From the NCBI GenBank assembly GCA_021205755.1, contig JAJPWX010000023.1, positions 1 through 48,076 on the forward strand: a stretch of 48,076 nt of DNA. Direction: 5' to 3'. The position numbers and the translations under genes are program-made. The stretch comes from Lachnospiraceae bacterium. Lineage in GTDB: Bacteria > Bacillota > Clostridia > Lachnospirales > Lachnospiraceae. Below are positions 1 to 28,327 of the stretch, in pieces (position 1 is the stretch's first letter; every line of letters starts with the position of its first letter). Below the pieces are notes generated by a model that did no database searches, was not told the DNA's origin, and was given only the letters and a program-made list of their open reading frames with translations.

Positions 1-3000
1 ATTATATAAAGAAAGATGGAGACGAGGACTGGCGTGGATACTCACGGTGGTCATGATTTTGACGAATCAGTCTATAATATTGGCGGATGATGGCCAGATT
101 GTGGTGGAGAGCAGCACAGAGCTTACTTCAGAGGTGACTGTGACAGAAGAAGATGGCTCTGGTGCAGATTCGGAGACCACGGCGACCACAACGCAGACAG
201 AGACAGCGGCGGAGCCGGAATCCGCGGCTTCTTCGGATGCCACGCCAGAGACAGATTCCTCTGATTCGAGCGCAGCAGAATCGTCTGCGTCTGAATCGGA
301 TTCGACGGAAACGGTGGAGCAGAATTCTGGTTTGGTTGAATCAGTGGAGTCAGAGACAGAGCCGACGTCTGCATCGGTGTCGGAGTCTTCGGAGGAAACG
401 GAATCTTCAACGGGAGCGGATTCGGGGACAGATACCAGTGTGGAATCGGATGCAGGAGTCGAGACAAACGCAGATACGGAGGAAGAAACCGGGACAACTT
501 CTGCTATAGAAGCAGAGACAGAAACGGAGACTGCGACAGAGACAGAAACGGAAAATGCCGAAGTAGGGGGGGGTATTTTCTACACTTGATGTAACGATTA
601 CGCAGGAAATCTTCCTTGATACGGATACAGATTCTGATGTGGTTACGGATACAGATGGGGATGGAAATGAGAATGCGGACGAAAGCGAAGACGCGGATTC
701 GGAGGAAAATTCGGATGCGGACTCTTTCTATGCGGTAAAATATACAATTAAAATAAAGAATACGTCAGCAGACACGGACGCAGAGGACGTGTCTGTAAAG
801 GTTGTGTTTGGGGAAAATCTGACCTGGTATGAGCGGGAGGATGACGAGACGGTCATTTCCGTTGAAGATCAGACGGATGCGTGGTATTTTATAGAGGATA
901 TCCGGGATCTGTCCGGGGTTCCCTCGCAGTATAACCTGGATGAACTGACAGAATACGCAGAAAACAGTACAGATAGTGAAAAAGCGCTGGAGCCGTATGC
1001 TTCGGCTGTTGTTTGGGTGGATCAGAAGATCGCCGCGGGAGAAGAGGAGGAGTATGTCTTCTACGCAGCGATCACAGAAGGGATCACCACGACAGACGAG
1101 CTGCCGGCTCTTTATTTTGTGGCAGGGGGGGCAGGTCGTAAATACGGCTGAGGATCAGAACGTGATCCAGTGGAAGAACGAAAATCTGCTCGCGGAGAAC
1201 GAGACGGAAGAAGAGACGGAGACCGAAAGCGAGACGGAGGCAGAAAGTGAAACGGAAACGGTGAGCGAGATGGAAAACGAGACCGAGAGCGAAACCGAAA
1301 CAGAAACAGAGATGAGTGCATCCCTGACGTATGAGGGTGGAGATTATGCTGTTACGGTTTCATACGGATCTGACGCGCAGCTTCCGGATGGGGTGGAGCT
1401 GATTGTCTCAGAGTATGCGGTGGATTCCGAGACCTGGCAGGCGAGGTATGCCGAGGCGGCAGAGCTTTACAGCCTGGAGACATTCCGACTGTTCAATATC
1501 GGGCTGTACGCGGAAGAGGAAGAAGTGGAGCCTGCAGCTGCGGTTAATGTTGCAATTACTTTCGCCGGCGCGCTTGCCGGTACAGGCGACTTATCGGAAG
1601 CAGATGCAATGGAAGCAGCTTCCGTGAGCGTAATTCATTTTGCTGAAGCAACTGGAAGCGGAAAAACCGGAACCGGAGAAACTGAAAGCGATGAAACTGG
1701 AAGCGGAGAAATTGAAAACGAAGAGGCCGGAATCGAAGAAAGCAGAAGCGAAGCAACCCAAAATGGAGTGACTGGAAGCGAAGAATCTGGAAATGAGTCC
1801 ATCGAGATTCTTGACGCTGTGGTGGAATATTCGAATGACGGGCAGACTGTCACGTTTACATCAGACAGCTTTTCTGACTATGGGATAGCTGTGGTTTCGG
1901 ATGAGAATGAGACCGATCTTGCCACTTTGCAGGATCTGATTAATCTGGCTGCGGCTGCAACGGAAGATGTGACTTTGACCACAGCCACGACGGATTCTTC
2001 CGGTGAGGAGACAACAACAAAAACAGCAATCCTGACCGCTGCGACGGATTCGTCTGAGGCGGTGATTACTCTTTATGCGGATTTTACGGAGAACCTGGAG
2101 ATTCCGTCCGGCACGACGGTCACGATTGATTTGCGTGGGCATACCTTGTCACCGGCGAAGAACGGGTCTGCGATTACGGTGAATGGCACGCTGACGCTTA
2201 TTGGCGCGAACACGGTTGCAGAGAACGGAGCTTCGGAGGGCGCCCGTGTCACAGTCACGGAGGGCGAAGGCTCTCTTGCAAATACAGATGAGACACTTAC
2301 CAGCGTCCGCGGTGTGGATGTTGCAAAAGGCGGCAGCTTCACCCTGATCAATGCTACTATCACCGGGTTTTCTGTTACCGGCAATGGCGGCGGCGTTTTC
2401 GTGGAAAACGGCGGCGCATTTGCCATGAACGGCGGTATCATACGGGACAACGCAGCGTCAGGCTATGGCGGCGGTCTCTTTATCTATGATGCTTCATCTG
2501 GGATTTCGATTTTGAAGAGTGCTGTTTGTGGGAATACGGCATCAAAGGGCGGCGGCATTGCGTTTGCTTCGTTTACATTGGATACGGATGGCACAACGAT
2601 AACGGATCTGTCCGTTACGGATAACACATCGGCAGGTACAGGCGGCGGCATTTATTCGGCGGCTACCGATTCTGTGATGGCGTACCTTTCTTACTGCACG
2701 GTTTCCGCTAATACGGCGGGTGCGAACGGCGGCGGCATTTACTTTGCGTCAAAGTCAACGGTGACGCTTGCATATTGTATGGCAAACGACAACCTGGTCG
2801 AAGCAGACGGGATACGTTGCGGAGGAGGAATCTGTATCGGCGCCACTTCGGATACGAGCAGTACGGGATGTGTGTTCACCATGATCGGAGGCTCTGTTTC
2901 CAGAAATACCATCCACAGCACCGACAGTTCAAACACCTATGGCGGCGGTCTATTTGTAGGTGGATATGCGGCAGTCGACATGACTGACGTCACGGTGGAT

Positions 3001-6000
3001 GGAAATACAGGCGCAAACAAGGGTGGCGGAATTGACATCTACGGTAACGAAGCAGACTGTACGCTCACGGATCTTACCGTGACGAATAATACAGGTATTT
3101 ACAGTTCCGGCACATCCACTACTCAAAACGGTGACGGAGGTGGTCTGCGGACCGGAAGCAGCAGCAGAGGAACTGTTACAGTGAATGGAGGTACCTACGC
3201 GAATAATTACTGTGATGGATTTGGCGGCGGAATGTATATTTACTCGACAGGGATTATTAAAGGAAACGTACAGATCTATGGAAATTCTGCAACGTCCTCC
3301 GGCGCCGGTGTCTTCTGCCGGTATCTGACAATTGAAACTGATGATGACGAGGAAATAGTAATTTATGGAAATACCTGTTCCTCGTCTGGAGGCGGGGTTT
3401 GTGCTTATTGTAGCCTGCAAATGTCCGGAAATGTGAGCGTTCATGATAATACGGGATCCAGTGGTGCCGGTATCTATATAGCGCTCTCATCCTCGACATC
3501 TCCGATCGGAAACATCAGCGGGAATGTCGAAATCTACAGCAATACTTCAAGCGGAAATGGCGCTGGTATTTATGCATCTTCCTACCTTACGGAGCTGGTA
3601 CTGTCTGGTTCAGTGAGCATCCATGACAATACGGTAACAGGTGCAAACTACCAGGGCGGCGGTGTCTACGTTACGAATGCTTTGTCAATCAGCGATGAAG
3701 TGGAGATTTATGATAATGCGGCCGGCTCAAGTGGCAGCGGCGGCGGCGTTTATGTGTCGGGCGGGGCGTTTACCATGACCGATGGTCGGATCTATGGCAA
3801 TACATCCGGCTCAAATGGCGGTGGAGTGTATCTGGGCGGGTCGGCGACGCATGTAATATCGGGCGGCGCGATTTATAATAACATTTCGAAATATGGCGGC
3901 GGCATTTATGCGAGCTCCAATACTGCGGATCTTGAAATTACGGGCGATGTCGAGATCTATGGCAATACAGCCACTGCAACAAGCTATGGCGGCGGTGGCA
4001 TTCTGACAAAGTGCAGTACGACCATAGACGGCGGCAGTATTCATGACAATACAGCGGCGAACTGTGGCGGTGGAATTTACATTGTGTGTCAAGGCAGCCA
4101 GGAACTGACGGTTGAAATTAAAGCAAAGGCGGATGCCGATGCCGATGGGAAGACTGCCATGATTTATGACAACGTCTCTCAGACTGCAAATGGCGGCAAT
4201 GACATTTATATGGCTGCGCAGTCGTCGAACAGCTATGGCGTGGTTACAATGAACTTGGACGCGGCGACAGGATTTACGGATGGAAACCGATCCGGCACCT
4301 CATGGTACCATGAGAATGGGACGGAAACGGATCCATATATAACGACATCCATTTCTGTTGCAAGCGATACGGCAGACAGAGCATCCGGCAAGCAGGATGC
4401 ATATACGTTTGTATATAACTCGGAAAAAATCGCATGGATAGAGAATACGGATCAGGAAGGAGGCACTTACTTCGGTTCGGTTCAGGCGGCGGTTGACTAT
4501 ATAGAAGCTTATTATTCTAAATATGGTGAATTGCCGGCTGATACTACGATCACCATGCTCGCGGACAGCCGCGAAGATGTTGTGGTCGGGGACGGAAGTA
4601 CAGTGGTTACGGCAACCCTTGATCTGAACGGATGCATTCTGCGGGCAAAGTCCGGAAGCGTGATCACCGTTAATGGAGGTTCTTCACTTACCATTTGTGA
4701 CAGCTCTTCATCTGAAGACGGTGATGGGACGGATGAGTCCGGTCAGATTACAGGGGGCAGCGGCACCTCGATTAATTCGGTAACCTGTGGCGGAGGCCTC
4801 TGTGTTCTGGGCTCGGTTACGCTGGAGAGCGGCACCATCACAGACAATACTGCTGACTGCGGGGCAGGCGTATACGTGGCTGCCTCTGGGAGCTTTACCA
4901 TGACGGGTGGCTCCATTGCCGGAAATTCCACAGACAGTGACGGACAGGGAGGCGGCGTTTACCTGGCCGGTTCCGGAGCAGAATTTATGATGAGCGGCGG
5001 CAGTATCACGGAAAATAGCGCGTCATATGGCGGCGGCGTTTCCATTGCCGGCGGTACGTTTACCATGTCCGGCGATGCCGAAATCAGTGCGAACACGGCA
5101 TCTGGAAACGGCGGCGGCGTTTATCTTACGGACGGCACGGCAGCAGTGTCAGGGAATGCAATAATCACTGAAAATACAGCAACCGGAGACGGCGGCGGCA
5201 TCTACGCAGCCGGGGGTACTTTTGCCGTGTCAGAAAGTGCAGAAATTAATGCGAACACTGCATCCGGCAATGGCGGCGGCGCTTATGTGGGAAGCGGCGC
5301 GACGTTTTCGATGGATGGCGGGATTTTTACAGAGAATTCGGCGACCGACGGCGGCGGGATTTATGTAGCGGACAGTGACGCTGCGCTTACGGCTGCCTCC
5401 GGTTTTCTCTATGCGAATACGGCGTCCTCCGGCTCCGCGAATGATGTTTATCTTGCGGCAAACAGCAAGTCTGTGCTCTTTGCGGTTTCGGATATGAGCA
5501 TGACCGATACTTATGACAGCTGGTATGATATGAATGGAGATGGTTCAGAGGAGTATCCATATTATAGGACAGACGCTCTGGATAACAGCGAATCCGGTAA
5601 AGAGCATGATTATGCTCTGACGGCGACCCTGTCTGAGAGTGATGGCGGATACGTGGCGTATATTCCGCTTTCTGACGGTGAGACGGCGGAAAGCACCGGC
5701 GTGACGACCATATACGCGGTACAGCAGACAGACGAGAGTGGAGAAGTGTATTATGACTATACGGAGACCGCACCAGAAGGCACGGAACAGGAAGGTGTGA
5801 CATCCGGGGAAGCAGTAAAGTCCGCTTCGGGCCATTTCTACACAACAGTTCAGGCTGCGGTGAACGCGGCGGGAAAGGACGGCATCGGGACGACCATTTA
5901 TCTGCTCTGTGACCATGCGGAGAAAGTAAATGTATCGACAAGCTCCGAAATAACGGTGGATCTGAATGGCTATACGCTTTCTACAGAGGGAAGCTATGTC

Positions 6001-9000
6001 TTTTATATGACAGGGGCGGCGGTTGGCCGCAGGCTGACCATCCTTGATCAGTCAACAGCATATGCCATGGGCAGCCCGGCGGTAACGCTCGATGTCTTTC
6101 ATAATCCGGAGACTGGTGCCATCGGCACGCTGACCCCGGCGGACGGCAATTCCGCTGACTTCCCGCGCGCGGTTAATATGGGCAATGTTATGGCGGCGTC
6201 TGCTGATAACACAGGTTCCCTTACGATTGACGGCGTTACCATCACCGGATTTGGGGACAGCAGCATGACGGCATCGGAGTCCGCTTCTTACGCAGGAGGC
6301 GCGATCACCGCAGGATATGGAAACTGTGTTATCCTTACGGGCTATACCGTGATCGAAGGGAATGATGCCTCCATCGGCGGAGCCATCAGTATGAATGTAA
6401 AACAGAATTCATCCTATCCGGTATACCTCACCATAGAAGATGATGTAGTAATCAGTGGCAACAGCGCATATCTCGGAGGCGCGATCTGGTTCTATAACGG
6501 GGTATCCGCATCTGGAAGTGATGTGGTTACGATTGGCAAAGCTTCTATTGAGGAAAATTCTGCTTCAGGGCAGTATGGCGGTGCATATATTTATGTAAAT
6601 ACCGGAAGAACAGTTTTTTCCGGCACCGTGTTCTCAAATAACACGGCGGTGAAGAACTACGGCGGTGCGTATATCGAATTTTCCTCAACCGGAACAGGGA
6701 ACAATGCTGAGGTGACAGATGTGACTGTGACGGGAAACCGGGTTACGAACGGAACAGGAGGCGGTCTGTATTTCTATAAGGGCAGCGTAGTCGTTTCCGG
6801 AGGGACATTCAGTGAAAACTATTCTAGGGCAAATGGTTCGGTCGTGGCGCTGGGATTAAATACTGTTGCAAGTAGTTCTTCGATAAGTGAAACAACATTC
6901 ACAGAGAACAGTACCGTAAGAGGAAGCATGATCTATATAAATGCTTCCACGGTTACGCTTTCTGGAGTGATTGTGGAACAAAATACCGGTGCAAATTATA
7001 ATGCGGCAGGTGTGTATATCTACGGAAACTGTACAATCACCCTGAAAGATGGATGTGAGATAAAGGACAATCAGACAAGCGGCATCTACAAAAATGGCAA
7101 CAACGGGACTCTGACCCTGACGGATACGGAGATTTCGGGCAACTCCTTCTATGGTATTTATTCAAATGGGAAACTGAATGTAGAAAAAGGGACCGTGATT
7201 TCCGGGAACGGAGACAGCGGAATATACGCTGGCAGCGGCACGGTGACCATGGAGGATGGGGAGATATCCGGCAACACGGCAGTGAGAGGCGCCGGTATCT
7301 ATGCGAACGGCACAGTGACAGTAAATATTTCCGGCGGAACGATCACCGGAAACGAGGCGACCGGCACATCCACTACCAGCAATAGCCTGACAACCTATTA
7401 TGGAGGGGGAGGTATTTTCGCGAAAGGAACTTCCGCGACTGCCATGGCGACAGTGAATATCTCCGGCGGAACCATCACCGGGAATTCAGGAAACTATGGC
7501 GGCGGGATCAGTGCGAACCATTATTCGAAGGTCACTGTCACCGGAGGCACTGTTACAGGAAATACCGCAGCCGTTTACGGAGGAGGCGTTTATCTGGCGA
7601 GCAATACGGCGACACTTACTCTCGGCACAGTATCGGAAGATGACGATGGAGCGGAAACCGTATCTTATGATGGGTGTTCCGGCATGCTCTATGGTAATTC
7701 GGCAGGACTCGGGCAGGATGTTTACGCGCTCTATTCTTCTTCCTACGCCAACACGTACCTTTACCTGATTGATGCTGAGACCATGATGAGCAGCAGTAAT
7801 TATGAAGGCATTGGATGGTACAATGAGTCCACCATGATAACGACAACGGATACCATCGTCTATGCACCTGTAAAGAGGGCTTATCCGCTGACGCTTGATT
7901 TCACATCGAAGACAACCGTGGCGGTGGTGTGGTGTACTGATTTGGATGGAACCGACACTGCCGGGTATCAGGAGTTTACTTCTGTGCAGGACGCATTTGA
8001 CGCGATCCTGGCGGATGAAAAGGCCGGGACGGGACTTTATTGTACCAGTGAGATCACAAGCCCGGAGGTCATTCTGGTTGATGATGTGAAAGAGAGCGTG
8101 GAGGTATCTTCCGGCACGACGGCGATATTGAATCTGAATGGCTACACGCTCACAGGATTTTCGACCGCAATCGAGTGCTATGGCACTCTCACAATTAAGG
8201 ATGTACAGTATACCGATACGGATGATACAGCGAGTGAGTATTATAATGCGAACTATAGTGCTCTGGTGTCTATCAATCAGTCTCTTCATGCTGATTCGGA
8301 AGGGACGACCACAAAGACCGGCGCGGGAAAGGATGAGACTGACACGGGTTATACCGGCACGATCACCGGCACGGCGTCCACGAACGGAGGCGGCATTTAT
8401 GTCCATTCCGGCGGAAATGTGACTATGGTCAGCGGGCAGATCGCAAACTGTACTGCCGGCGGCAGTAACACGGGTACGGCTTACGGAGGAGCCGGGGTGT
8501 ACATTGAGGGCGGCACATTTACGCTCACGGGGACAGCTTCCATCAACAATTGTTCCACCAACGCCTACGGAGCGGCAGTCTATTTGACGACTGCGGCAGG
8601 TTCCTTTATCATGTCGGGCGGCACCATCTCGGACAACACAGCGGTGGGTGGTGCGGTCTATGTGGCGAACGGCACGTTCAAGATGACCGGCGGCGAGATC
8701 ACGGGAAATACTGCGACATCCTATGGCGGCGGCGTTTATGTAGGCAGTTCAGGGAAAGTGACCGCTACCGGCGGCGAAATCACGGGAAATACGGCGGCGC
8801 AGCGCGGCGGCGGTATCTATATGGGAGGTACCGTGAATCTTTCCGGTGTTACCGTATCAGACAACACCGTAACTGCCGCGCTCAGTTCGACGCAGACTAC
8901 GGGATCGGGCGGCGGCATCTATGTGGCCGGAGGAACCCTCACGATTAAGACCGGTACAAAAATTACGGGCAATACGGCGTCCCGGGGCGGCGGTATTTTC

Positions 9001-12000
9001 CAGAGCAGCGGGACAATTACGATGTCTGGTGGGCAGATCACAGGGAATATGGCGGACTACGGCGGCGGAGTCGCCCAGTATTCTTCCGGGTCGGGGACAT
9101 TTAAGCTTTCCGGCGGCGTCCTTTGTGACAATACCTCAAATTATACGGTTGGCAACGATGTGTATTCAACAACAGACAGCGGCACGGTGGGTACGGGTTC
9201 CTCAAAGGTTACCCTGATCCGCGCAGCTACTATGTCGGAATCTGGATACGAAGAGGATTATAATGTCTGGAGAGACGACACATACAGTGGCGATGAGGAA
9301 AGCGGGAGCTATATCGGTGACGGTCTGTATGTAACCGAGACAGTTTCCTCCTACAACGGCGTGCGGCTGACAGCGGCAAAATACGGGGAGACGGAGGAGG
9401 AAGAGACAGAAACCTCCAGCCTGTCCGTAAAAGAGATTATTATTGATGATTCAAATAATGGAATTGTGGACGGCACGTCTGTGTGGGATAGTGACGGCGC
9501 GGTGACGGCATATGAGACCGGCGAAACCACAAACGAAACTTGGTCTGCCACGGGTAATGTGACGAAGAATCCTCTGGCAAAGATGTGGACGGCGGGGAGT
9601 GATGCAAATGCTGGAAATGGTCTGGTGCGCAGTTTCGACAGGGTCACTTATTACTGCGCTGCCAATACGCAAGGCGTAGATGTTGAGGATACAGAGGATA
9701 GGGTGAAGCTTTATGTGCAGGTAGAGATTCCTCTTTCCAATGACCAGGCTGAGCTTGTCTATGTGAATGGCCTGGATTCCTATGAACTCACGGAATCCGA
9801 TGATGGCGAGGCTCAGATCCTGACAGGATACATAGAAGTCAAGGAAATGACCGGATATACTCCATTCGCGATCGCAGTCGATGTGAAAGCAATGAAAAAT
9901 GGAGAACTTGTAAAGCCTGTATTTACGTCCTGGATTGAAGAAAATTCAGAGAATAAGGAGACACCTGCCACATTTACGCCTGCTGCCGTAACAGTATCCG
10001 CAACCGGCAAGTACAATGTGACTCTGGAGAAGAATTCTACGCTGAACTATACCGGCTATTTTGACATGACGACCGGCCAGGAGACAACAAAGTCGGAATA
10101 TGAGAACAATAATGATGACGGCCATATTATTTACGGGACCATGCTTGGTTATGGCGTGACGCTGTCCCTGTGGAATGACGCTACAAACAAAGGAATGAAA
10201 GGAGTGGAAATACCGGAAGGGGAACTTTCATTTGACTTTTCCCTCAAGAGCACGATAACCCTGAATGCGCTGGATGACAGCGGCGATGATGACGATGGAA
10301 CCGATTCGTCAGACGCAGACAGTATAAGCGTGGCGCCGTATATCTGGGCCTACAAGGCCAATGAAAATACAGATACGGGAAGCAATCTGTCCGGTACGAT
10401 TAAGAACGCCAACATGAACTGGAATGACGAGGATGATCTGACGAGTACGACGCAGTACGCGTATGACGGAGCGCCGTATAATACGTGCGGCATTTCCTCC
10501 ACATCTTCTTATCTGACCTGCTATTCCGGAGGTTCCTGGTCGGCATCCGGCAGCAACCCTGAGAGCGAAACTGCAGAATCCACGACAGTTACCTTTACTG
10601 TCAGCGGCTACACAATTGACAGTACATTCGAGACAAGCTATCCGACCAGGATGTCGGATAACAATACATACAGCAATTTTAACAATAAATATACAAGAGC
10701 TTTTTCCGCAGGCTATATACAGGTGATTGTGCCGGTCAATGATATTCTTACAGCGGATGTGGACGAGGGGACTTATGTGTCGATCGAGGTTGCGGCGCTT
10801 GTCTCAGACCTGGCCCTGACGGCGGGAAACGGAGGCGTTGTAAATCAACTGGTTGAGTCAGATCTTGAGTCAATCACAGCCTGGTATGCTTCGGAAGGAA
10901 GCGATGCATATAAGGATCATGCCACCAATGAGGTAAAATATAGTGACAACTATGTATCGGAGACAACCGGCCTGTATCTTTTCTCGGAAGGGGATGAGGT
11001 ACTGATAAAAGCAAACTATTTCCGCAATTCGACAGATAGCGCAAATCTTCCGTCTACACGCTCGAATGGAAACGGCTCTGCCCTGCTGGGAAGCACTGTG
11101 TATGTCGGAAGCTATCTTCAGTTTGGCAGCAGCAGAATCGACGCTTCGACAATGCAGGATGAGCAGGAGATTACAAACCAGGTGGAGTACAATTACCTGA
11201 CCGCAATCAATGTCCTGCAGAAGTTTGACTCGAACGCCTATACGCCCGTGGGTACGAGTGAAGCGATCGTGGATCAGAAATATTCGCTTACCGGGACATC
11301 AAACTACATCACGGAGAGCAGTACGTCGGAGCGAATCTTTCGGATTACGACGACCGAGTCAGCGACCGACTGGGATGGCTATACGAATAAAACCATGAGC
11401 TATACCCTGACCATTCTGTACGCTGCGAAGCCGGACGGTTCGGCATGGAAGTATGCGACAGATTCTGCGGGATACCAGTCACCGGTCGGTGATATGGATA
11501 ACTATAACGAGGAGGATCTGATCTATTTTAGGACGCTTGACGAGCTGTATTCTTGTTTCGGGTATGATGACGACGGAAATCCGAAAGGCGTATGTGTCGG
11601 CATCCTTTATGAGTTCCGCGACTGCTGCATCCGGAATGATCGGACAATTGACATTGTGGCGAAAATGAACGTGACGGACGATTATGACGCAGTCGGAAAT
11701 ACGTATTGCATTACCAATGACGTACTCGGCTGGACGACTTATCGCCCCACTTATAAAGCGGCTCTGGAGGCGGGGACGCTGGATAAGATCTTGTATGATT
11801 TTTCGTGGAGCGATGTAACTTATGCCAGCCAGAATGGAACTACCGCTTATGGAACAGGGGGAGGACCCGTGCCAGAAAGCTATACCACCGCGAAAAAGAA
11901 TTATGTGGAGGTGGATGGTTATACTTATGACGGGGCCGCAAGAAAGACGAATTATTTAACCGACTACATCAAGACCGAGTATTCCGGCGGTTATATGCTG

Positions 12001-15000
12001 AGCACTACGCATTTATCCGGCTGGTATTATGGAAATACACTCCTGATTTATACTCTGGATTCGGATATCAGTATTGATGTAACGGACAAGGCTAGCAAGG
12101 ATTCGAACGATACGAAGTATTATTACAATATCAATAACGGAGAATGGACGGCAAACTTCAAGGTAACTCCGAGCATAGGACTGGACACCTCAGTCTCAAA
12201 TGATATTGTGCTGAACGGGGAGACCGCAGTGAACGTAACCGTCAGCATTACGCTGCCCGAATATCTGAGTTATAACGATGGGACACTTGTGTTTGATTAT
12301 TCTAAATCAGATTATGAGGAGGGCGAGCTGGACTGGGCGGTCGTGTATGTCAAAAACAGCGACGGTACGTCAACCATTACCCTGACGACGACGATTTACG
12401 ATCCCGATAAAGAACTTCCATCATTTTCCTACTGTGCGACCATAGGGACGCCGGGCGACAGTGCCTCGATTCAATCGATTCTCAACAAGACCCTGACGAC
12501 GAAGGCAGAAATATACATTGCCTATGAAAGTGAGGGTGAGGAAGAAAAAATAGGAGGAGTGACAAAATACGATACGGCAGGGATTGTGCCGACCGGTTCC
12601 GCACAGGACTACATCTGGGTCGAAGCGGAAGGAAAACAGGAGCTCGGCGAGGATCTCGTATTTAACCTGAACTATAATTATGCCGAGGGTTCTTACAATA
12701 CCGTGGAGATCGGCACGCTTCTGCCCTATAACGGCGATGGCCGTGGAACCTCCTTTACCGGGGCGTATAAGGTATCCAGGATCACACTGACATTTACGGA
12801 TGAAGAAAGCTACAAGGCATATATAGGTTCTTATGAGTCAACAGATCCAGCTACTTCAACGACTGGAAAACTGCTGTACTACAGCGAAATTCTGTCATTT
12901 GAATCAGATAACACGGGTGAGATAACCAATCTGACAGACATCATGAGTTCTTTGTCAGGCGGAACAGCGTTTTCAGCATCTCCGATTACTGGTACTGGTA
13001 CAGATGAGAGTGAAAATACAGTATATACGGTTACCTATTCCCTGACGGAGGAAGAGCAGACTGCGCTGACGCAGCTTTCAACAAAGAGTGGCGGCTCTGG
13101 ACTGTATGTTTATCTGCCGTCGGTAGTGCAGAATGATACAGTGACGATCAGCGTGACGCTTCAGCCTGCCACGACGAGTACGGCCGGATATGTCAGCCTG
13201 CTTGAGGACAGTGTGGATGAATCCGTGCAGGCGGGAGGAAATATTTATTACGAGAATATGTTCTACCGCCAGTATTCGAGCGTTAGCGGAACGACTTACA
13301 ATTCATACCTGAGCAATTCCGCATATATTACAATCGTCGAGCGGAAGCTGTCAGGAAGAGCATGGCTCGACCAGGACCGAAACGGAGCCTACAGCACTGT
13401 AAGCGGAAGTACGGATCGGGCGATGCAGGGGATAGAGGTATATCTGTACACGGATACTGCGCCGATTGAAAACGATGTGGTGACAAAAGAGACCGAAGCA
13501 GATGGTAGTGCTGTCTGGTCACAGAGCCTGAGTACAACGACGACCGACGAGAATGGAACCACTACCACTAAAACAAAAACCTTGTCTATTGGAACTGTCA
13601 CACTGGAGAACGTGTATACCTCCAGTGGCACTGGTGAAATGGTAACACTTTACCCCGCACAGGATGTCCTTGGCAATCTGGTAGCTCCGGTACAGACGTC
13701 ATCTACCGGCCTTTATACCTTTGAGAACCTGGCGGCCGGGAATTATTACGTGGTATTTAAGGACAGCGACGGTTCCTACACGGTTGCGGCAAATGGAAGC
13801 AGCGAAGCGGAAGATACGCCGATCGCATTTTCAAAGCTCAGCGTGACAACCACAGCGAAGGCTTCCCTGTCCGGACCGTATAACAAATCGCTGCCGGACT
13901 ATGATACATCGTCAACATCCGGTATAACGCCGCTGGAGCAGGCCTACGCTTCAAAACTGATATCTGACGACAGCAGGGGAACGACGACGATTACAGCTAA
14001 CGCAATTGAACTTCCGGAGATCAGCGAAATATCCGGGAATACCTATACGACATCAAACTGGAACGCAGGATTTTACTATATTGAGTTGAATCTTGAAAAA
14101 GTGTGGGAGAACATCATCAGCGGGATTGAAGAAGGAACCGCAGTAACGTTTGAAGTCACGGGAACCATGACAGACGACAGTGGCAGTGAGCCTGATGCCA
14201 CAGTGGTGGTAGATGATAAGTATACATTGACACAGGGGAGTTCTTCGACCAATGTCAGCGTTTCGAAAAATAATACCAAGGTCACTTCTCCGACGGTGAC
14301 AGTAACTGATGACATAGCAACGGATGGTACAGTAACTTGGACTCTGGGGACGGTAGCGCTGCAGGCAAAGGATGCATCCGGCGAAATCAGCTACAGCATC
14401 ACAGAATCGGCTGTGAAAACGGTAAACGAAAACGGCACAACAACAACCCAGGATCTCAGCGGCTTTGTGACCACTGTAGAGACGGAGGACAACAGCACAT
14501 CCTCCTCGACCATATCGGTGACCGCGACTAATACGCAGGTTTTGTATGAGCTTGTGCTGTATAAGATCAGTACGAGTTCAGGTGGGCAGATATCGTATCT
14601 TTCTAATGCGACATTTACACTGTACACGGATTCAGGTTGCACGACAGAAGTCCCTTCGACTGAGATTTCTGCAGGCAGTGCGTCCGCAACTTCCGGCGCG
14701 AATGCTTTAAGCACTGCGACAAGTGCTGAGAGCGAGACCGGAAAACTTTACATCGGAAAGATTGCCGCGGGCACCTACTATCTGAAAGAGTCTGCCGTAC
14801 CGTCTGGGTATACGTTGAACCAGAGTGTGTGGAAGATAGTTATTTCGTATAATAAAAACGATCCAACGACACCGGTTATCACCGTGACATTGGTGAAAGA
14901 TGAGAATGGAAATGATGTATCTAATCAGACGCCTTTCACTTTGGACACTACGTCTACGACAGGCGGAACGGATACATACTACCTTGCTTCCGATTCCTCC

Positions 15001-15180
15001 TCGGCTGTTAACGGTACGTGCACCCTGTACACGCTTTCGTTCCAGATGAAGAATGTGGTTACATATTCCCTGCCAGCGACTGGCTCCGTCGGCATCGTAT
15101 GGCCGACACTTGCAGGCATTGCGCTGATGCTCGCGGCGCTGGTGATGAACGAGAGAAAAAGGTGGGGAGCGAATGCGTGA
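1..15180 (+). CDS. Giant LPXTG-anchored beta-helix surface adhesin, 5' partial, two frameshifts
   Basis: Cell-wall-anchored surface protein, probably an adhesin or pilus-tip protein. The frame is open to the window edge, so the start codon lies upstream. The visible N terminus is a signal peptide (basic KERWRR, hydrophobic stretch, likely cleavage after ILA near nt 82). A Ser/Thr/Glu-rich stalk follows (110-565, again 1190-1315). Four right-handed beta-helix modules with GGGIY and ITGNTA repeats fill about 2100-9170. A long unrecognised region (9430-13300) leads to an SdrD-B/CnaB-like domain (13340-13900), a CnaB-like domain (14070-14520) and a SpaA-like domain with E-box KESAVPSGY (14530-14880). 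The sorting signal LPATG is at 15070-15084, then a membrane helix and RKR. The frame shifts by one base at the G8 run (566-573) and at the G7 run (1125-1131). Deleting one G from each restores one frame of 5059 codons. As written, translation stops at 589. Ligand unknown. Confidence 0.85.
566..573 (+). repeat. G8 homopolymer at frameshift 1 of the giant adhesin gene
   Basis: Eight consecutive G within codons for VGG. As written the frame ends at a TGA at 587-589. With seven G it continues as GGVFSTLDVTITQEIF into the downstream coding frame. This is either a phase-variable slippage tract or a homopolymer sequencing error. Confidence 0.9.
1125..1131 (+). repeat. G7 homopolymer at frameshift 2 of the giant adhesin gene
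   Basis: Seven consecutive G after the YFVA codons. As written the frame stops at 1149-1151. With six G it reads FVAGGQVVNTAEDQNVIQW and joins the 14-kb downstream frame. It breaks the frame in the same direction (+1 G) as the tract at 566. Confidence 0.9.
2100..9170 (+). repeat. Coding repeats: four tandem beta-helix modules
   Basis: Degenerate coding repeats of about 60-90 nt encode GGG(I/V)Y turns alternating with ITGNTA/ISDNTA strands, typical of right-handed parallel beta-helices (Pmp/pectate-lyase-like). Each module opens with a cap containing LxGxxL, encoded near 2130 (DLRGHTL), 4617 (DLNGCIL), 5960 (DLNGYTL) and 8128 (NLNGYTL). The last three caps are preceded by a helix of the type SVQAAVDYI, TVQAAVNAA or SVQDAFDAI. 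The repeats are too diverged in DNA to be a simple tandem array. Confidence 0.85.
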
Positions 15181-15259
15181 AAAGCAGATACATAAAAGAA
15201 AAATTCTGGGAAACTGGATGTGTGGGAAACAGCAACTGGGAGTTCCGACGGGGGGGTGA
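15173..15259 (+). CDS. Possible 28-aa peptide overlapping the adhesin stop and ending in a G run
   Basis: An ATG at 15173 overlaps the last codons of the giant adhesin gene (the TGA stop is at 15178-15180), so it could be translated by reinitiation. It encodes a basic 28-residue peptide (MREKQIHKRKILGNW...) ending in PTGG, where both glycines and the preceding codon's last base come from the G7 run at 15250-15256. There is no clear ribosome binding site and no homologue I recognise. It may be chance. Confidence 0.25.
   Translation: MREKQIHKRKILGNWMCGKQQLGVPTGG
15250..15256 (+). repeat. G7 homopolymer between adhesin and pilin 1
   Basis: Seven consecutive G at the end of the small coupled frame 15173-15259. 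It is the third of four G runs of 7 or more in the window, all within the first 15.6 kb. Changing its length adds or removes only a few codons of the small frame, so no large protein depends on it. Confidence 0.85.
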
Positions 15260-15440
15260 ATGATGAGTGAATGAAATACAGATACGGGAAATGGAAAAGA
15301 GTGAAAAACGGGTGTGCAAACGGCGGATACGAAAAATGCAGGAGTGTGAAAGATATTCCGGAAAAGTCCGCGATGGATAAACAACAGAAATGACAGAAAA
15401 TTATAAGCGATAAGCTACTGTAAACCATGAGAAACGATAG

Positions 15441-15516
15441 ACCGGGCGGCCAAAAGCGCCTGCGAAAGCATTGCCCCGGTGAAAGCACAAAAACAATGGT
15501 GCCAGATAGACACCAT
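15441..15516 (+). promoter_or_regulatory. Structured 5' leader of pilin 1 with pre-RBS hairpin
   Basis: The 358-nt stretch between adhesin and pilin 1 has no convincing gene but can fold. ACCGGG (15441-15446) pairs with CCCGGT (15475-15480). Between them are a GGC/GCC stem and a small hairpin with a GAAA loop (15461-15470). Then ATGGTG (15496-15501) pairs with CACCAT (15511-15516) across the 9-nt loop CCAGATAGA, 10 nt before the Shine-Dalgarno AAGGAGAG. The last hairpin has a close counterpart before pilin 2. I cannot assign it to a known riboswitch class. Confidence 0.5.
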
Positions 15517-15538
15517 GAAAATTAAGAAGGAGAGGTAA

Positions 15539-17489
15539 ATGAGCATGAAAAAAATGTGGAAAAAGATGATGCCGCTTTTGGCGGCGATTTCGCTCTCGCT
15601 CGCAGCGGGGGGGGGTGACGGCCGGAGCGACAGAGACAGAGCAGCTGGAGGCTGAAACTGAACAAGGCGGAAGTGAGTACATAGTAACGAACACTGCGAC
15701 GGTCACGATTGATGGAACTTCCGCATTGAGCGGCAGCAGCGTATCAATCAGCGATGTGACATTTACGACTTATCGGGTATTATACGCAACCTACGATGAA
15801 GACTCTAATGCATTTGAGTGGCATTTAACAAATTGGGCTGCAGATGCTCTTGTAAAGACAAGCGGTGCCGATGGTATAACTACGTTTGCTACGGAGGAGG
15901 CGGCAATTGCCGCCATCAGTGGGATCACAACCAGTGGTACAGGTACATCATCAACTACCGAACAGAATGCCATTATCAATTATCTGGCTTCTTATGTAAA
16001 AACTGCTAGTCCTGCGATATCAACATATAGTGTTTCATGGAGTAAAAGTGGAAATAAAGCAACGAAAAACCTTCCAGTCGGTGGCTATCTGGTGCTTGCG
16101 GGCAACTCGAATATGTCTTTCCTTAACATGTTTGTCAGTGTTGATGTAGAGGGTACCTCGGGAACGGCGAGCAATCAGTGGATTGTAAGTGCCAATAATG
16201 TGGTGCTGAAAGGAAAAGTAATCAGCATTGAAAAAGGTGTGAATGATAGTGGTACCTCATCAACTTATAGTGATACTGCTGACGCTCAGGTTGGTGATAC
16301 GGTATATTATGAGATCACCGTACCCGTGCCGCAGTTTGCGATCGATTGTAAAACTTATCTGTTCCAGATTGTGGATACGCCGTCAAATGTCGCTATTGAC
16401 TTCGACAGTGTTACGGTCAAGGCCGGGACATGGAGTGCTCAGAACACAGTAGATCCTGGTTCTGCCACTTTGCTGTACAGGGCTGTGTATAACAGTAGTT
16501 TGGATACGTGGAGTTATGTAGATACCTCTAATACCTCTGATCCGAAGAATGCGGGTGGTTATACCGCAGTTCTGTCGTCACAGGATAGTTCTCTGACGAT
16601 TGATTTCTCGGATCTGTACTTGGCTACATTTTATGACGCGACCAGTCAGACGTATCCCTATGACTACGTTTATATTACTTATTCTGCCGAAGTGCTTTCC
16701 ACAGCGGTAACGACACTTGAGACAGGTAACGGAAATACAGCGGAGCTAACTTATGGATCAAGCTATACAACATCAGTGGATCATAATGAGGGTGAAAGTA
16801 AGGCGAAAGTAAACACGTATCAGCTGAAATTGACAAAAACAGCAACTAACGGTACGAATACAACTCTTTCAAATGCTGAATTTGAAGTGTTTTACTATGT
16901 CACAGAAGGTACCGGTGTTGACACAAAAGTGACAGAGTATACGTTAAGTTTCATTCAGAATTCAGATGGAAGCTATGAAGTGGTAGACTCCACGGATACG
17001 CCAACCTCAACAACCGTGAAAACAGATGACAACGGAACGCTCACACTGATCGGTCTGGATTCGGATAAGGTCTATTACATTCAGGAGGTAGTGGCGCCGT
17101 CCGGATACTCGTTGAACGAAAACGTGGCAACATTCAAAATAACAGTTGATAATAGTGTGTCTCTGAGCAGCAGTGACAGCGTAGAGTACACTGGTTTTGA
17201 GCGCGGAGATCAGACTGGAACGAATGCGGAGCCTGGCGGCTCCAGCAAGACAGTAGTTTCAACGAGCAAATCGTGGACAATTGGCACTGACTCAGTTACT
17301 GTTGGAACGGAGAGTGTCACAGAAGTAAGCCTGACCGTGACGGATACAAAAATTGCAGCCCTTCCCGCAACGGGTAGCGTTGGTATTATCGTATTTACGA
17401 TTGCCGGTGTGGCGATCATGATATTAGCTTTGATTTTGATCAATGGCGGAAAAAGCAAAGAAAAGGCAGGACAGGGAATGAAGAGATAA
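15539..17489 (+). CDS. LPATG major pilin / SpaA-like surface protein 1, frameshifted in signal peptide
   Basis: Sortase-polymerised pilin or related surface protein. The start is ATG 15539 (or 15545) after AAGGAGAG; the protein begins MSMKKMWKKMMPLL, a signal peptide. A run of nine G (15607-15615) inside the signal-peptide codons shifts the frame and leads to an early stop. With eight G the frame reads LAAGGVTAGATETEQ and continues for 650 codons. Mature protein: N-terminal pilin-type domain, a central domain with PVPQF, a SpaA-like domain with E-box YYIQEVVAPSGY (nt 17070-17110), LPATG at 17361-17375, a membrane helix and a basic tail. It is paralogous to the next gene over its whole length. 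A GTG at 15615 opens the long frame but would lack a signal peptide, so it is not a credible start. As written the product is off. Confidence 0.85.
15607..15615 (+). repeat. G9 homopolymer in the pilin 1 signal-peptide codons
   Basis: Nine consecutive G, the longest homopolymer I noticed in the window. Nine G give LAAGGGDGRSD and a stop shortly after; eight G give LAAGGVTAGATE and the full 649-aa pilin. Its location in the signal peptide, early in the gene, is typical of phase-variable surface genes. Confidence 0.9.
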
Positions 17490-17626: not shown

Positions 17627-17702
17627 CAGAAACTGTTCATGGCGTGCCCTTCTAGGACACCCCTGTATTCTCGGTTTCTTAATAGTAAATCGGGAATCCA
17701 AC

Positions 17703-17721
17703 CGGTGCCGGATGGACACCG
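17703..17721 (+). promoter_or_regulatory. Pre-RBS hairpin of pilin 2, matching that of pilin 1
   Basis: CGGTG (17703-17707) pairs with CACCG (17717-17721) across the 9-nt loop CCGGATGGA. The pilin 1 hairpin has the same loop length and the related loop CCAGATAGA. In both leaders exactly 22 nt separate the hairpin from the start codon, and both use AAGGAGAG as Shine-Dalgarno. Confidence 0.5.
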
Positions 17722-17743
17722 CCAAAGAAAAGGAGAGATTTAC

Positions 17744-19582
17744 ATGAAGAGAGTATGGAAAAAAATGGCAGCATTGCTCATGATGATGGCGATGGTATTT
17801 GGAATTAGCATCATTGCAGAAGCAGCAGCGTCAACAACAGGTGCTGGTGAATTGACAACTCATACGTTATACACCGTGGCTAATGTGGTATCTAATACCG
17901 CCACAGTTGAAATTAGTGGTATTGATACACAGGCGGATGCAGTAAGCTTTAAAACATATCAAGTAATTTATGCCACCTATGACAGCACTTCCAATGAGCT
18001 TGAATGGCATTTGACTGATTGGGCGACTACAGCATTAAGTAGTACTTCTTATACGACGGATGATGTGATTAAGGCGTTGGCAATTGGTTCAACACCGTCT
18101 GCGTCCACTACGGGGCAAAGCACTACCGAGCAGAGCGAAGTCATAAATGTTTTGGCGGCTTATATCGCAGCTAATAATACGGTATCCACTTATGCGACAC
18201 TGACAGGAGATTCTGCAGCTGAATTTACAACCACTTCTACGGGAACTGCCTCTACTACAGCGACTCTGGCGGTCGGTGCGTATCTGGTGATTCCGACCTG
18301 TGCGAATATGTCTTTTTTGAATATGTTGGTGAGCGTGGATGTTGATGGAACCACAGGTAACACTGGAACAACCGCAAAAGATGGATGGGTGCTTACTTCA
18401 AATGGAGCGGTGCTGAAAGGCAATCTTTTGTCAGTTAGTAAAACAGTGAGCGATACTGAGAACGGAACCTATGGTGAAACCGCTGATGCGCAGATCGGAA
18501 CGACAGTATATTATCAACTCAAAGTGTATGTGCCGAAGTTTGCGGAAAATGACAGCGAAAAAATCTTTTATGTAGAGGATACAGCAACAAACCTGAAAAT
18601 TGATGCAACCAGTGTGAAAATTTTAGCCTATGGTTGGGGTGATGAATTAATTGCCTGTAATGATATAACAGCTTCTGATGGTACAGCACAATATTATGCA
18701 TCGACTGATTCTACGGGAAGTAAACTGACCGTTATATTTTCAAACGCTAAGTATCCCTATTATGATAGAACTTTCTATGATGATTCGGATGGATCTTATC
18801 CGTATGACTATGTGATTATTTCGTACAGTGCGGAACTCCTAGATGAGGCTGTTGTAACTACAGGAAATAAGAACAGTGCAACCATGACGTATGATTATGA
18901 TAACCATACTTCTGTTACAACACAAGCAGTTACGACCGCTGTATATACCTATGAGGTAGACCTGACAAAACTCGCGGAAGGAACGACCACGACATTGTCA
19001 AATGCATCCTTTGAAATAACCGACAGTAATGGAAATAAGCTTAATTTTACTAAGGATACTTCAGCAAGCACAGATGATCTCCCGGTATATCGGGTAGCTG
19101 ACACGTCAGTAGCGTCTAAAGATAAGAGTCCAGTAATCACCACAGGTACAGATGGGGTAAGAATCATCGGATTAGATGAAAGTGTAGCATATACGATTGT
19201 CGAGACAGTGGCACCTTCCGGATATACGTTGAACACGAATACGCTGACATTTACAATTACAGATATGACATCTGATGCAGATGCTTCACCGAATGGGACT
19301 ATTGATGTAATTACTTTGGCGGAGAACCAGGGAAATACAACGACTTTGAACTGGTCAACAAGTAATGACGAGAAAGATTGGCCGACTGGACGGACATGGA
19401 GTGTCAGCCTTACACCATCATCCACAGGAGGTTTTGGTATGTCAGTCACTGATACCAAAATCGCTGCTCTCCCGGCCACCGGTAGCGTCGGCATTATCGT
19501 CTTCACTATCGCTGGCGTAGCAATCATGATTCTGGCTCTGGTGCTGATCAATTCAGGCAAGAGCAAACAAAAGAAAGCTTGA
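17744..19582 (+). CDS. LPATG pilin / SpaA-like surface protein 2 (intact)
   Basis: Intact 612-aa pilin-type surface protein. The start ATG 17744 follows AAGGAGAG at 6 nt; longer upstream reading lacks a ribosome binding site and would add non-signal sequence. Signal peptide MKRVWKKMAALLMMMAMVFG with likely cleavage after AEAA. The N-terminal domain has TATVEISG and FKTYQVIYATYDSTSNELEWHL-type sequence shared with pilin 1. A central domain contains VYVPKF. A SpaA-like domain follows, with E-box YTIVETVAPSGYTL. The sorting signal LPATG is at residue 576, then a membrane helix and the tail GKSKQKK. It should be polymerised or anchored by the class C sortases encoded from 26173. It is the only one of the three large surface genes here with an uninterrupted frame and the only one without a long G run. 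Confidence 0.85.
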   Translation: MKRVWKKMAALLMMMAMVFGISIIAEAAASTTGAGELTTHTLYTVANVVSNTATVEISGIDTQADAVSFKTYQVIYATYDSTSNELEWHLTDWATTALSSTSYTTDDVIKALAIGSTPSASTTGQSTTEQSEVINVLAAYIAANNTVSTYATLTGDSAAEFTTTSTGTASTTATLAVGAYLVIPTCANMSFLNMLVSVDVDGTTGNTGTTAKDGWVLTSNGAVLKGNLLSVSKTVSDTENGTYGETADAQIGTTVYYQLKVYVPKFAENDSEKIFYVEDTATNLKIDATSVKILAYGWGDELIACNDITASDGTAQYYASTDSTGSKLTVIFSNAKYPYYDRTFYDDSDGSYPYDYVIISYSAELLDEAVVTTGNKNSATMTYDYDNHTSVTTQAVTTAVYTYEVDLTKLAEGTTTTLSNASFEITDSNGNKLNFTKDTSASTDDLPVYRVADTSVASKDKSPVITTGTDGVRIIGLDESVAYTIVETVAPSGYTLNTNTLTFTITDMTSDADASPNGTIDVITLAENQGNTTTLNWSTSNDEKDWPTGRTWSVSLTPSSTGGFGMSVTDTKIAALPATGSVGIIVFTIAGVAIMILALVLINSGKSKQKKA

Positions 19583-21249: not shown

Positions 21250-21336
21250 CCGTGTTCCGGGGGGACGATTGACAGATATACTGGTCATGAAACGCTGGAT
21301 TGATGTGTAAGAGGTTTTGTGATAAGATAAATTATT

Positions 21337-21363
21337 GTAACTGTGAAAGCACTGAACAGTTAC
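21337..21363 (+). repeat. 27-nt dispersed palindrome, copy 1
   Basis: Arms GTAACTGT and ACAGTTAC around an 11-nt centre GAAAGCACTGA. The same arms with near-identical centres occur at 29670-29696 and 41017-41043. This copy sits 40 nt before the start of the next gene. Confidence 0.85.
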
Positions 21364-21403
21364 AGATTATCTGTATTCGGATGTGAGACTGGAGGTGAGC
21401 GGT

Positions 21404-23071: not shown

Positions 23072-23088
23072 AAAGATTCTATCCTGGC

Positions 23089-23176
23089 AAATTTTGAGAC
23101 AAAAGAAAGTGGTCAGGATATGATGATGAATGCCATAAACTAAAAAACAAGAAGTTTGTGGAATGAATGCAACAAA
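23089..23176 (+). repeat. Diverged direct repeat, copy 2 (upstream of HTH regulator)
   Basis: Partner of 19785-19874; the last 26 nt (23151-23176) are identical between copies. The end of this copy overlaps the first codons of the HTH gene if its start is ATG 23167. The corresponding frame reads NFETKESGQDMMMNAIN here and NYEIKESD-stop-NIVINVIN in copy 1, so the repeat may be the relic of a coding end. Confidence 0.7.
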
Positions 23177-23859: not shown

Positions 23860-23876
23860 TGGGAGAGAGGATTTAT

Positions 23877-23993: not shown

Positions 23994-24137
23994 TATTTTG
24001 CTTGTTGATACTGGCTTTATGTGCTAAACTACTTTCATAGATCTCATTGCATTTTTCGGATATAGGAAGTGTAAAAGAATTTGTCTGCATGAACAGTATT
24101 TCTGCGTTGCGGTCAGAGAAAAACGGGGTGGCAAGCT

Positions 24138-26172: not shown

Positions 26173-27144
26173 ATGAGGAAGATCAGCTTAAGAAAGAAAA
26201 CGGCCGCGGGCAGTGGAAGGAACCCAGCGCTGACCCTGCTGTTTGTGGTGGGTTTTCTGCTGGTGCTGTATCCGGTGTTTGGCAACCTTTGGAATGCGTA
26301 CCGGCAGCAGCGGCTGTCCAATACCTATGAGGCAGAGGTGGAAAATCTGACGCAGGATGAGTACGCGGATGAATGGGCGGCGGCGGAGGCTTACAATGCT
26401 GCGAATTCCCCGATCTGGGTGCCGGATGCGTTTTCGGATGAGGAAGTAGAGGCGGATGAGGAATACGAAAGCCTTTTGAATGTGGCCGGGGACGGCATCA
26501 TGGGCTATCTGGAGATTCCGAAGATTGATATAAAGATTGCGATTTACCATGGCACCAGCGATGAAGTGCTGACAAAGGGAGCGGGACATCTGCACGGCTC
26601 TTCTCTGCCGGTCGGCGGCGAGGGGACGCATGCGGTTATCGCGGCACACCGGGGGTTGCCGTCCGCGCCGTTGTTTACCGACTTGGATCTTCTGGAGATC
26701 GGGGATCAGTTTTATCTGTATGTGCTGGATGAGGTGCTGGCCTATGAGGTGGATCAGATTCTGATTGTGGAGCCGGATGAGACGGAGTCGCTCGTGCAGA
26801 CGCCGGGCGAGGATTATGTGACGCTCGTGACCTGCACGCCTTACGGCGTCAATACCCAGAGGCTCCTGGTGCGGGGGCACCGGGTGGAATATACGGTGGA
26901 GCGGTACGAGGAAGAGGCAGACAAAAGCACTTCCTCTATGGCGACCAATTATGTGCTGGTGGCGCTGCTTGGGCTGCTTACGGTAGCGGTGGCGTCCGTG
27001 CTGATTCGGATGTATTATCGCAGGAAAGCAGAGCGCGCGGCGGCTGGGAACGTAGATGCGGCTGGCAATGAGGCGACGGCCAAAGAAAATCGTGACACAG
27101 TGACGTCGAAGAGTGAGAATCCGGCAGCGGGAGGAGACAGCTAG
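26173..27144 (+). CDS. Class C (pilin-polymerising) sortase 1
   Basis: A 323-aa membrane transpeptidase that cleaves LPXTG-type signals and joins pilin subunits. An N-terminal membrane helix (LLFVVGFLLVLYPVFG) and a C-terminal helix (VLVALLGLLTVAVASVL) with a basic tail are both typical of class C. Catalytic residues are visible: His159 in AAHRG, Cys221 in TLVTCTPYG and Arg230 in NTQRLLVRG. A candidate lid segment SPIWVPDAF precedes the catalytic domain. The start ATG 26173 follows AAAAGGA. The stop codon is immediately followed by the ATG of sortase 2, so the two are co-translated. The pilins it would act on are encoded 6.6 kb upstream, on the other side of the accessory island. Confidence 0.92.
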   Translation: MRKISLRKKTAAGSGRNPALTLLFVVGFLLVLYPVFGNLWNAYRQQRLSNTYEAEVENLTQDEYADEWAAAEAYNAANSPIWVPDAFSDEEVEADEEYESLLNVAGDGIMGYLEIPKIDIKIAIYHGTSDEVLTKGAGHLHGSSLPVGGEGTHAVIAAHRGLPSAPLFTDLDLLEIGDQFYLYVLDEVLAYEVDQILIVEPDETESLVQTPGEDYVTLVTCTPYGVNTQRLLVRGHRVEYTVERYEEEADKSTSSMATNYVLVALLGLLTVAVASVLIRMYYRRKAERAAAGNVDAAGNEATAKENRDTVTSKSENPAAGGDS

Positions 27145-28185
27145 ATGGGCGCGGACAGGGAACCGGAAAAACAACAGAAGGAGAAGTCGGGCTCCAGGGT
27201 CAATGTTCGAACCCTCCTGGGCATGCTGATTTTCGTGTTTGGACTGTGCGTGATACTTTACCCGGCGGTGAGTGATCGCTGGAATCAATGGAGGCAGTCG
27301 CGTCTGACACAGAATTATGAACAGACGGTGGAGCAGCTGCAGGAGGATGATGTATCGGAATTATGGGAGGCTGCGTGGGAATATAACGCGAATCTCACAG
27401 GAAATACGATTGGCGACGCGTTTGAAGGGATTGCTCTTACCGAGACGGAAGGGCTGACGGCTTCGGAGGCAGCTGCGGAGTCAGAAGATACTTCTGGAGC
27501 AGATTTGGTAAGTGATACTTCGGACATGGCTGCGGAGGCCGATGCGGAATACGAGACGGAGGAAGTTCTCTCCGCCTCGAAAGCGGATACCCTTTATCAA
27601 TCGCTGCTGAACCCGGCGGGCGACGGCATTATGGGCTATCTTTCGATTCCGAAGATAGATGTTTACCTTCCGATTTACCATGGTACGGACGCGGAAGAAC
27701 TGCAAAAGGGCGTCGGGCACCTTTATGGTACTTCGCTGCCGGCTGGCGGCGAGGGAACCCATACGGTACTCGCGGGCCACAGAGGGCTGCCCTCGGCGGC
27801 GCTTTTGACGGATCTGGATTATCTGGAGGAAGGGGATCTTCTCTATTTATATATACTGGACGATGTGCTGGCGTATGAAGTGACCGGCGTTGAGGTGGTA
27901 GAGCCGGACGAGACGGACAGCCTTGCGATTCAGGCGGGGGAAGATCTGATTACGATAGTGACCTGCACACCTTATGGGATCAACACGCATCGCCTGCTGG
28001 TACATGGCTCCCGCGTGGAATACGTTCCGGAGGAGGAACAGGAAACCGTCACACAGGTGCTGGATCTGCACAGCTTTGCGTGGATGGCGTATGGGCTTCC
28101 GGCAATTGGCATTGCATTTGTACTTTTGCTGGCCTTGCTGATGCGTGTTCGAAGAAAACGGCGGGAGCGGAGAAATCAGGAATAA
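27145..28185 (+). CDS. Class C sortase 2
   Basis: A 346-aa paralogue of the preceding sortase, starting directly after its stop (TAGATG). It has an N-terminal membrane helix (LLGMLIFVFGLCVILYP), then an acidic insert of about 60 residues rich in Glu, Ala and Ser between helix and catalytic domain, not present in sortase 1. Catalytic residues are His212 in LAGHRG, Cys274 in TIVTCTPYG and Arg283 in NTHRLLVHG. A C-terminal helix and RRKRRERR follow. Two class C sortases in one pilus cluster often divide the work between shaft subunits and minor subunits; which one uses LPATG and which the VQTGD substrate of the next gene cannot be told from sequence. Confidence 0.9.
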   Translation: MGADREPEKQQKEKSGSRVNVRTLLGMLIFVFGLCVILYPAVSDRWNQWRQSRLTQNYEQTVEQLQEDDVSELWEAAWEYNANLTGNTIGDAFEGIALTETEGLTASEAAAESEDTSGADLVSDTSDMAAEADAEYETEEVLSASKADTLYQSLLNPAGDGIMGYLSIPKIDVYLPIYHGTDAEELQKGVGHLYGTSLPAGGEGTHTVLAGHRGLPSAALLTDLDYLEEGDLLYLYILDDVLAYEVTGVEVVEPDETDSLAIQAGEDLITIVTCTPYGINTHRLLVHGSRVEYVPEEEQETVTQVLDLHSFAWMAYGLPAIGIAFVLLLALLMRVRRKRRERRNQE

Positions 28186-28327
28186 AATTTGCCTGGACAA
28201 TGGGTTCGTTATGTAACCTGTTGTGAGAGTGGCAGCAAAAATGGAGCGGAAGCTCTGAGATGAAATGCGCAGGAAAAGCTGAGGCGCGAGATTGATACAA
28301 TCTGAGAAACAAAAGGGGGAACCGGAG

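Follow-up and report, generated by a model that had tools for sequence, protein, structure and literature searches.

Long poly-G tracts in a pilus locus and other surface genes of a Lachnospiraceae bacterium as probable contingency loci

In this study, we analysed the poly-G tracts of a sortase-assembled pilus locus in a 48,076-nucleotide stretch of DNA from a Lachnospiraceae bacterium (here the window; contig C126, positions 1 to 48076, of a 4,024,550-base draft genome in 136 contigs). The locus is made up of a giant adhesin, pilin 1, pilin 2, two sortases, and a third pilin-like gene. Judged from sequence comparisons, two tracts (at 566 and 15607) are very likely contingency loci, at which replication slippage would lead to phase variation, as are probably most other runs of eight or more G residues in surface genes of this host; the tract at 1125 looks private to the host, a shorter G run of the adhesin that was lengthened more recently. 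Slippage of the replication machinery would add or remove G residues at a long run close to the 5' terminus of a gene for a surface protein, the length of the tract would set whether the signal peptide and the mature protein stand in one frame (ON) or not (OFF), and single cells would display or lack the pilus component to match. In the host assembly, the adhesin and pilin 1 are recorded in the OFF state, and pilin 2 and the sortases of the window are open.

The original prediction had weighed contingency loci against a sequencing artefact, and the former reading is supported by an excess of long tracts, by their location in surface and envelope genes, and by conserved positions that differ in tract length and frame state across related species. 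Genome-wide, the host carries 31 runs of at least seven G (counted from 55 overlapping matches): 16 of seven, 7 of eight, 7 of nine, and 1 of ten. Runs of exactly six number 157 versus 16 of exactly seven, an approximately tenfold decay, from which about 1.8 runs of eight or more are predicted versus the 15 observed (P about 1e-9). Runs of seven are background-like; those of eight or more form an unusual class, in excess over chance, and 43 of the 47 genomes of the genus carry them.

The tracts are placed such that their length would set either the frame (at 566, 1125, 15607, and other sites) or the start region of the gene. As predicted, the window contains exactly four plus-strand runs of at least seven, at 566 (G8), 1125 (G7), 15250 (G7), and 15607 (G9), and reaches at most six elsewhere (two G6 runs, at 21259 and 34774); its longest C run is no longer than five. 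The claim that three of the four break a frame was also upheld: at each of 566, 1125, and 15607 the flanking sequences are open, but in different frames, and the codon score agrees for all three. Over the host genome, codon-frame scoring called clear breaks at 5 of 15 runs of eight or more G and placed 0 of 15 in frame; for G7 runs, 1 of 16 was a break and 3 of 16 were in frame. The split G7 cases are the tract at 1125 and, by reading, an acyltransferase-3 gene (C122). Five host G7 runs read straight through (three of them also by codon score), one in a 3,057-residue surface gene with 12 SpaA stretches (C117) and four in ordinary genes, namely, an aminotransferase, a SpoIIE-like gene, a solute-binding protein, and a phage-like gene. 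At L054, where the tract adjoins a run of N, the frame was left uncalled.

Runs of at least eight A served as a control for sequencing error (20 of the 21 runs of nine or more were retrieved); none of the 30 scored was a break, and 6 of 30 were in frame. Possible breaks were flagged at 3 of 59 G6, 6 of 175 G5, 8 of 141 A7, and 8 of 423 A6 runs, the G6 total comprising 40 control loci hand-picked from the first 100 of the 157 places together with G6 runs in other loci. On inspection, two of the three flagged G6 cases (L085 and L112) were open through the run and the third (L090) was ambiguous. Three flagged A7 cases that were inspected proved to be a larC-like gene, apparent overlapping genes, and an apparent real break; in the last (L037:3079, host C30), the frame seems to change at the A7 run, perhaps another unstable site.

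Host runs of eight or more G lie in the adhesin (566), the pilin (15607), and two further giant secreted proteins (C16 and C75) for which a Pfam search returned no match. Others lie in a sortase (C47), a ceramidase-like protein (C101, PF04734), a hexapeptide acyltransferase adjoining a gap (C120), and at the end of a GGDEF/EAL protein (C2). A further set stands just 5' of the start codons of a nickel-insertion (larC-like) gene, a LytTR regulator, a GHKL kinase, and an alanine racemase (C37, C47, C88, and C110), and three are intergenic or on the opposite strand (C26, C79, and C108).

Related genomes show a similar range of genes. From 30 tool-chosen loci (L116 to L145), 28 proteins were searched, since L116 had no suitable frame and L142 repeats L132. 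At least 7 of these 28 genes match pilin, glycosyl- or sugar-transferase, Wzz, or acyltransferase-3 families. Among 25 of the 45 Pfam families matched (one gene can match several), glycosyltransferase group 1 and pilin backbone were each found in two genes, and Bac_transf, Polysacc_synt_2, Wzz, acyltransferase-3, and PglD_N in one each; the same 28 genes also include a conjugation protein, a Dam methylase, a solute-binding protein, and a ClpB-like ATPase. For 42 G6 control genes, no pilin, glycosyl- or sugar-transferase, Wzz, or acyltransferase-3 family was present among the 25 listed of 83 families, which were those of aminotransferases, transporters, glycosyl hydrolases, and other enzymes. 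Closely spaced tracts (27 genes, a biased pick) gave five glycosyltransferase family 2 genes, three hexapeptide transferases, two Bac_transf genes, and two glycosyltransferase group 1 genes. The loci L146 to L165 and L187 to L206 were hand-picked, L146 to L165 largely for close tract spacing.

Both tract length and ON/OFF state differ among related genomes, compared between species. We compared four groups of homologous surface-gene tracts within the genus, matched by flanking anchor peptides or by frame reading. Of 20 tract copies, 8 are in frame, 9 fall in one out-of-frame class, and 3 fall in the other, a split compatible with random phase (P = 0.21), the related sequences not being independent. 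The adhesin tract at 566 (tract A) has homologues in five other genomes; across the six, its length ranges from 6 to 9, with two copies in frame, three at one offset, and one at the other. The pilin tract at 15607 (tract C) was compared in four genomes (the host, G008, G011, and G013), one in frame and three out, and was not resolved in G012 (L195) and G014 (L196). A second pilin family, its members partly paralogues within one genome, gave seven copies (four in frame, one and two in the out-of-frame classes), and a signal-peptide tract of a giant protein gave three copies, one of them in frame. G011 and G008 share 90.7% identity over 505 nucleotides (nt) of their pilin loci, yet these differ in tract length and state, one being in frame and the other out of frame.

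These offsets also bear on the main rival, a systematic homopolymer over-call, in which the assembly would have lengthened G runs in genes that are in fact intact. It had been suggested by the claim that all three breaks in the window are exactly one G too long. The breaks at 566, 1125, and 15607 do share one offset class, although offsets are read modulo 3, so that one G too many is indistinguishable from two too few; the same class also leads in the genus set, with 14 of 24, and excerpts of PMC9187656 warn that database G-tract lengths are unreliable. A uniform offset is not a rule, however: homologous tracts of relatives show the in-frame class and both out-of-frame classes, and 30 other genomes of the host family, each contributing one locus, gave nine callable tracts that are split 3, 3, and 3. 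Because the offsets are mixed and the A-run control is clean, we consider an over-call improbable; the five host G7 runs that are open through also speak against it, and the concentration of the excess of G8 and longer runs in certain genes is not expected of error.

Ordinary gene decay, in which the adhesin and the pilin would be pseudogenes and the tracts incidental sites of frameshift, is less probable again. The adhesin does have two separate breaks (566 and 1125), the second at a private tract; however, the main frames are open for 4744 and 640 codons, the tract positions are kept in other species, some of them in frame, and the breaks are located at G runs rather than scattered over the genes. 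Least probable is programmed recoding, whereby ribosomal frameshifting or transcript slippage at the G run would yield some full-length protein from a gene fixed out of frame: an offset class shared by many tracts would fit a fixed direction, and a gene resembling larC, which is recoded in other bacteria, adjoins the tract at L038, but a conserved offset among homologues would be expected and all three values were seen.

The prediction that all runs of at least seven G cluster in the pilus locus holds within the window but fails for the genome, where 27 of the 31 lie outside it. The window has 4 runs versus 0.37 expected (Poisson P = 6e-4), approximately 12 times the density of the rest; as the best of about 84 windows, however, this corresponds to a probability of only about 0.05, and the clustering is therefore weak and is not relied on here. 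This weakness counts against the interpretation of the tracts as contingency loci, as do several other observations. Tract A is absent in G014, and tract C is absent in G007 and G016. The tract at 1125 (tract B) is private to the host, the run being shorter or interrupted in 6 of the 6 relatives shown (at most six distinct relatives were listed per tract), and the sortase and ceramidase-like tracts are likewise private to the host genome; the ceramidase-like gene is open in the sister genome G021, which is 93% identical over 3,790 nt. A G8 run at L139:1508 (G010 C11) breaks a ClpB-like AAA gene, not a surface gene and an unexpected site for a switch. By codon score, the offsets across the full genus set are split 7, 14, and 3 of 24 (chi-square 7.75, P about 0.02), so that one offset class is in excess. 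Finally, the comparisons are all between species, with one genome per species and mostly draft assemblies.

Of the known systems, the nearest is found in Bifidobacterium breve UCC2003, whose sortase-dependent pili are switched by G tracts (bbr_0113 and bbr_1889; Penno et al. 2022, PMC9187656); according to excerpts of that paper, tagged-molecule sequencing was used to measure slippage there, and the pili were visualized by electron microscopy. In the same excerpts, B. breve is, like our host, a gut commensal, in which the secretion signal and the LPXTG part of the first pilus gene lie in two frames around a G tract, the pilus cluster has its own sortase, and similar tracts occur in other species of the genus. 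The window has the same arrangement: the signal peptide and LPXTG part of both pilin 1 and the adhesin are in two frames around a G tract, and sortases (26173-28185) lie in the cluster. Unlike B. breve, the host is known from sequence alone and belongs to another phylum, its tracts lie in two genes of the pilus locus as well as in many others elsewhere in the genome, and a TA ending was found (see below). The tracts are also reminiscent of the poly-G phase-variable genes of Campylobacter jejuni (PMC6437147, on Campylobacter poly-G tracts and abundances in the chicken gut), which, in the part of that source used here, are likewise about 8 to 10 G long, lie in surface-structure genes, including those of glycosyltransferases, and are switched on and off by frame. 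C. jejuni is a Gram-negative pathogen in which polysaccharide and glycan genes are prominent, whereas the window holds pili and a giant wall-anchored adhesin. By analogy with Campylobacter and Bifidobacterium, variation in tract length within a population, slippage as its cause, its rate, and selection for switching may be expected in the host.

Homopolymeric tracts inside genes have been described as general prokaryotic switches (Orsi et al. 2010, PMC2831843); in the portion of that article consulted, Clostridia are named only in a list of sampled groups, and poly-G and Lachno gave no match. Among the titles listed by searches of the open-licence literature (at most 20 per list), none reported poly-G contingency loci in Lachnospiraceae, which is a weak negative. 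The switch itself would be of a known kind, and what these searches did not turn up is a report of it from this group of gut bacteria. If this is true, a group of gut commensals diversifies its pili, adhesins, and surface polysaccharides by a kind of switch for which Campylobacter is the best-known example. Genes broken in this way are entered by automatic annotation as truncated or without a signal peptide, and surface repertoires would therefore be under-counted. Tract length would have to be noted in studies of host binding, antibody coating, and phage resistance in such commensals.

The long runs have a second property: they tend to end in TA. The two bases after the run are TA for 44 of 87 runs of eight or more G, compared with 6 of 30 G7, 6 of 77 G6, 22 of 317 G5, and 119 of 1845 G4 runs; 42 of the 87 tracts come from hand-picked loci. 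Against G5 and G6 runs together (28 of 394), the difference has a P value of 1e-19, and TA is likewise found in the host genome (6 of 15) and in the tool-chosen relatives (12 of 30). There is no strong consensus 5' of the runs of eight or more. Coding pressure was rejected as the cause of the TA ending, which occurs in all codon phases (the base that follows the run falls in the three codon positions in 10, 13, and 12 TA tracts) and in 9 of 15 tracts without a coding call. Inheritance of a few old TA tracts was also considered; judged by eye, the contexts look unrelated.

The skew appears to be largely a property of the host family. In 396 genomes of the family, GGGGGGGGTA was counted 721 times versus 191 for the reversed control ATGGGGGGGG, with the motif exceeding the control in 181 genomes and falling below it in 34; in 197 genomes of the phylum outside the family, the counts were 291 versus 238, with 74 genomes above and 48 below. 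The skew differs between the family and the rest of the phylum with a P value of 2e-21, although genomes are not independent. The motif is present in 210 genomes of the family and in 118 of the phylum outside it (the phylum set of 199 included two of the family). In some relatives, the ceramidase-like gene has GTA already after a short G run (L248 and L250), and TA may therefore come first, with the G run then growing against it. We tentatively suggest that the host family could make or maintain its poly-G switches via a site-preferring process, that is, a mutational or enzymatic bias, specific to the lineage, toward the lengthening of G runs next to TA, beyond plain slippage; this is a possibility rather than our expectation. 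The family-limited TA ending is the new part of these results and would surprise a specialist; it provides a direct handle on how such tracts arise.

Some tracts may act other than through the frame. Runs located 4 to 14 nt before an ATG (with a frame of at least 120 codons) were found for 4 of 15 runs of eight or more G, 2 of 16 G7, 2 of 59 G6, and 10 of 185 G5 runs. Because the longest class is enriched at this distance (4 of 15 versus 12 of 244 for G5 and G6 together, P = 0.009), some tracts may tune translation instead of frame. G tracts were seen in the Shine-Dalgarno region before start codons at L038, L040, L044, L051, L047, and L048 in the host and at L155, L156, and L164 in relatives, the genes including a LytTR regulator and a GHKL kinase; such tracts could tune translation by spacing.

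The features of the pilus locus are collected in Table 1.

Table 1. Coordinates of the pilus and adhesin features in the window
Feature	Coordinates	Strand	Remarks
Adhesin piece 1	2..589	+	Open frame; signal-peptide-like start (by eye) and acidic Ser/Thr/Glu-rich stalk up to tract A; contig begins here; no match in Pfam search
Tract A, G8 then TA	566..573	+	Frames on its two sides differ
Adhesin piece 2	567..1151	+	Open frame
Tract B, G7	1125..1131	+	Breaks frame; private to host genome among relatives compared
Adhesin piece 3 (main, 4744 codons)	949..15180	+	Beta-helix and SpaA domains; LPATG-type end near 15070 (by eye)
G7 between adhesin and pilin 1	15250..15256	+	Intergenic, splits no frame; G6 at similar place in G011 (L188:312)
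Pilin 1 start and signal-peptide-like stretch	15539..15606	+	Frame differs from remainder of gene (by eye)
Tract C, G9	15607..15615	+	Sits where pilin 1 signal peptide ends
Pilin 1 main open piece (640 codons)	15570..17489	+	Isopeptide/SpaA domains, LPXTG anchor
Pilin 2	17639..19582	+	Frame open; no G tract of seven or more
Two sortase genes	26173..28185	+	First matches class C sortase above its cut-off
Third pilin-like gene	28292..29515	+	SpaA and major-pilin matches weak, below cut-off

Between the pilins and the sortases, positions 19933-25454 hold an AAA_14/DUF4143 gene, an AAA-ATPase-like/PDDEXK_9 gene, an HTH_7 resolvase-like gene, and an ATPase resembling PtuA (below its cut-off); this segment looks like a mobile or defence insert. 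Elsewhere, a G8 run at L044:4998 (host C88) and a G10 run at L162:1691 (G016 C125) stand at the same gene boundary, after a similar upstream gene. At L043:612 (host C87), a histidine-phosphatase-like frame, recognized by eye, is interrupted by an extra stretch shortly 3' of a G7 run.

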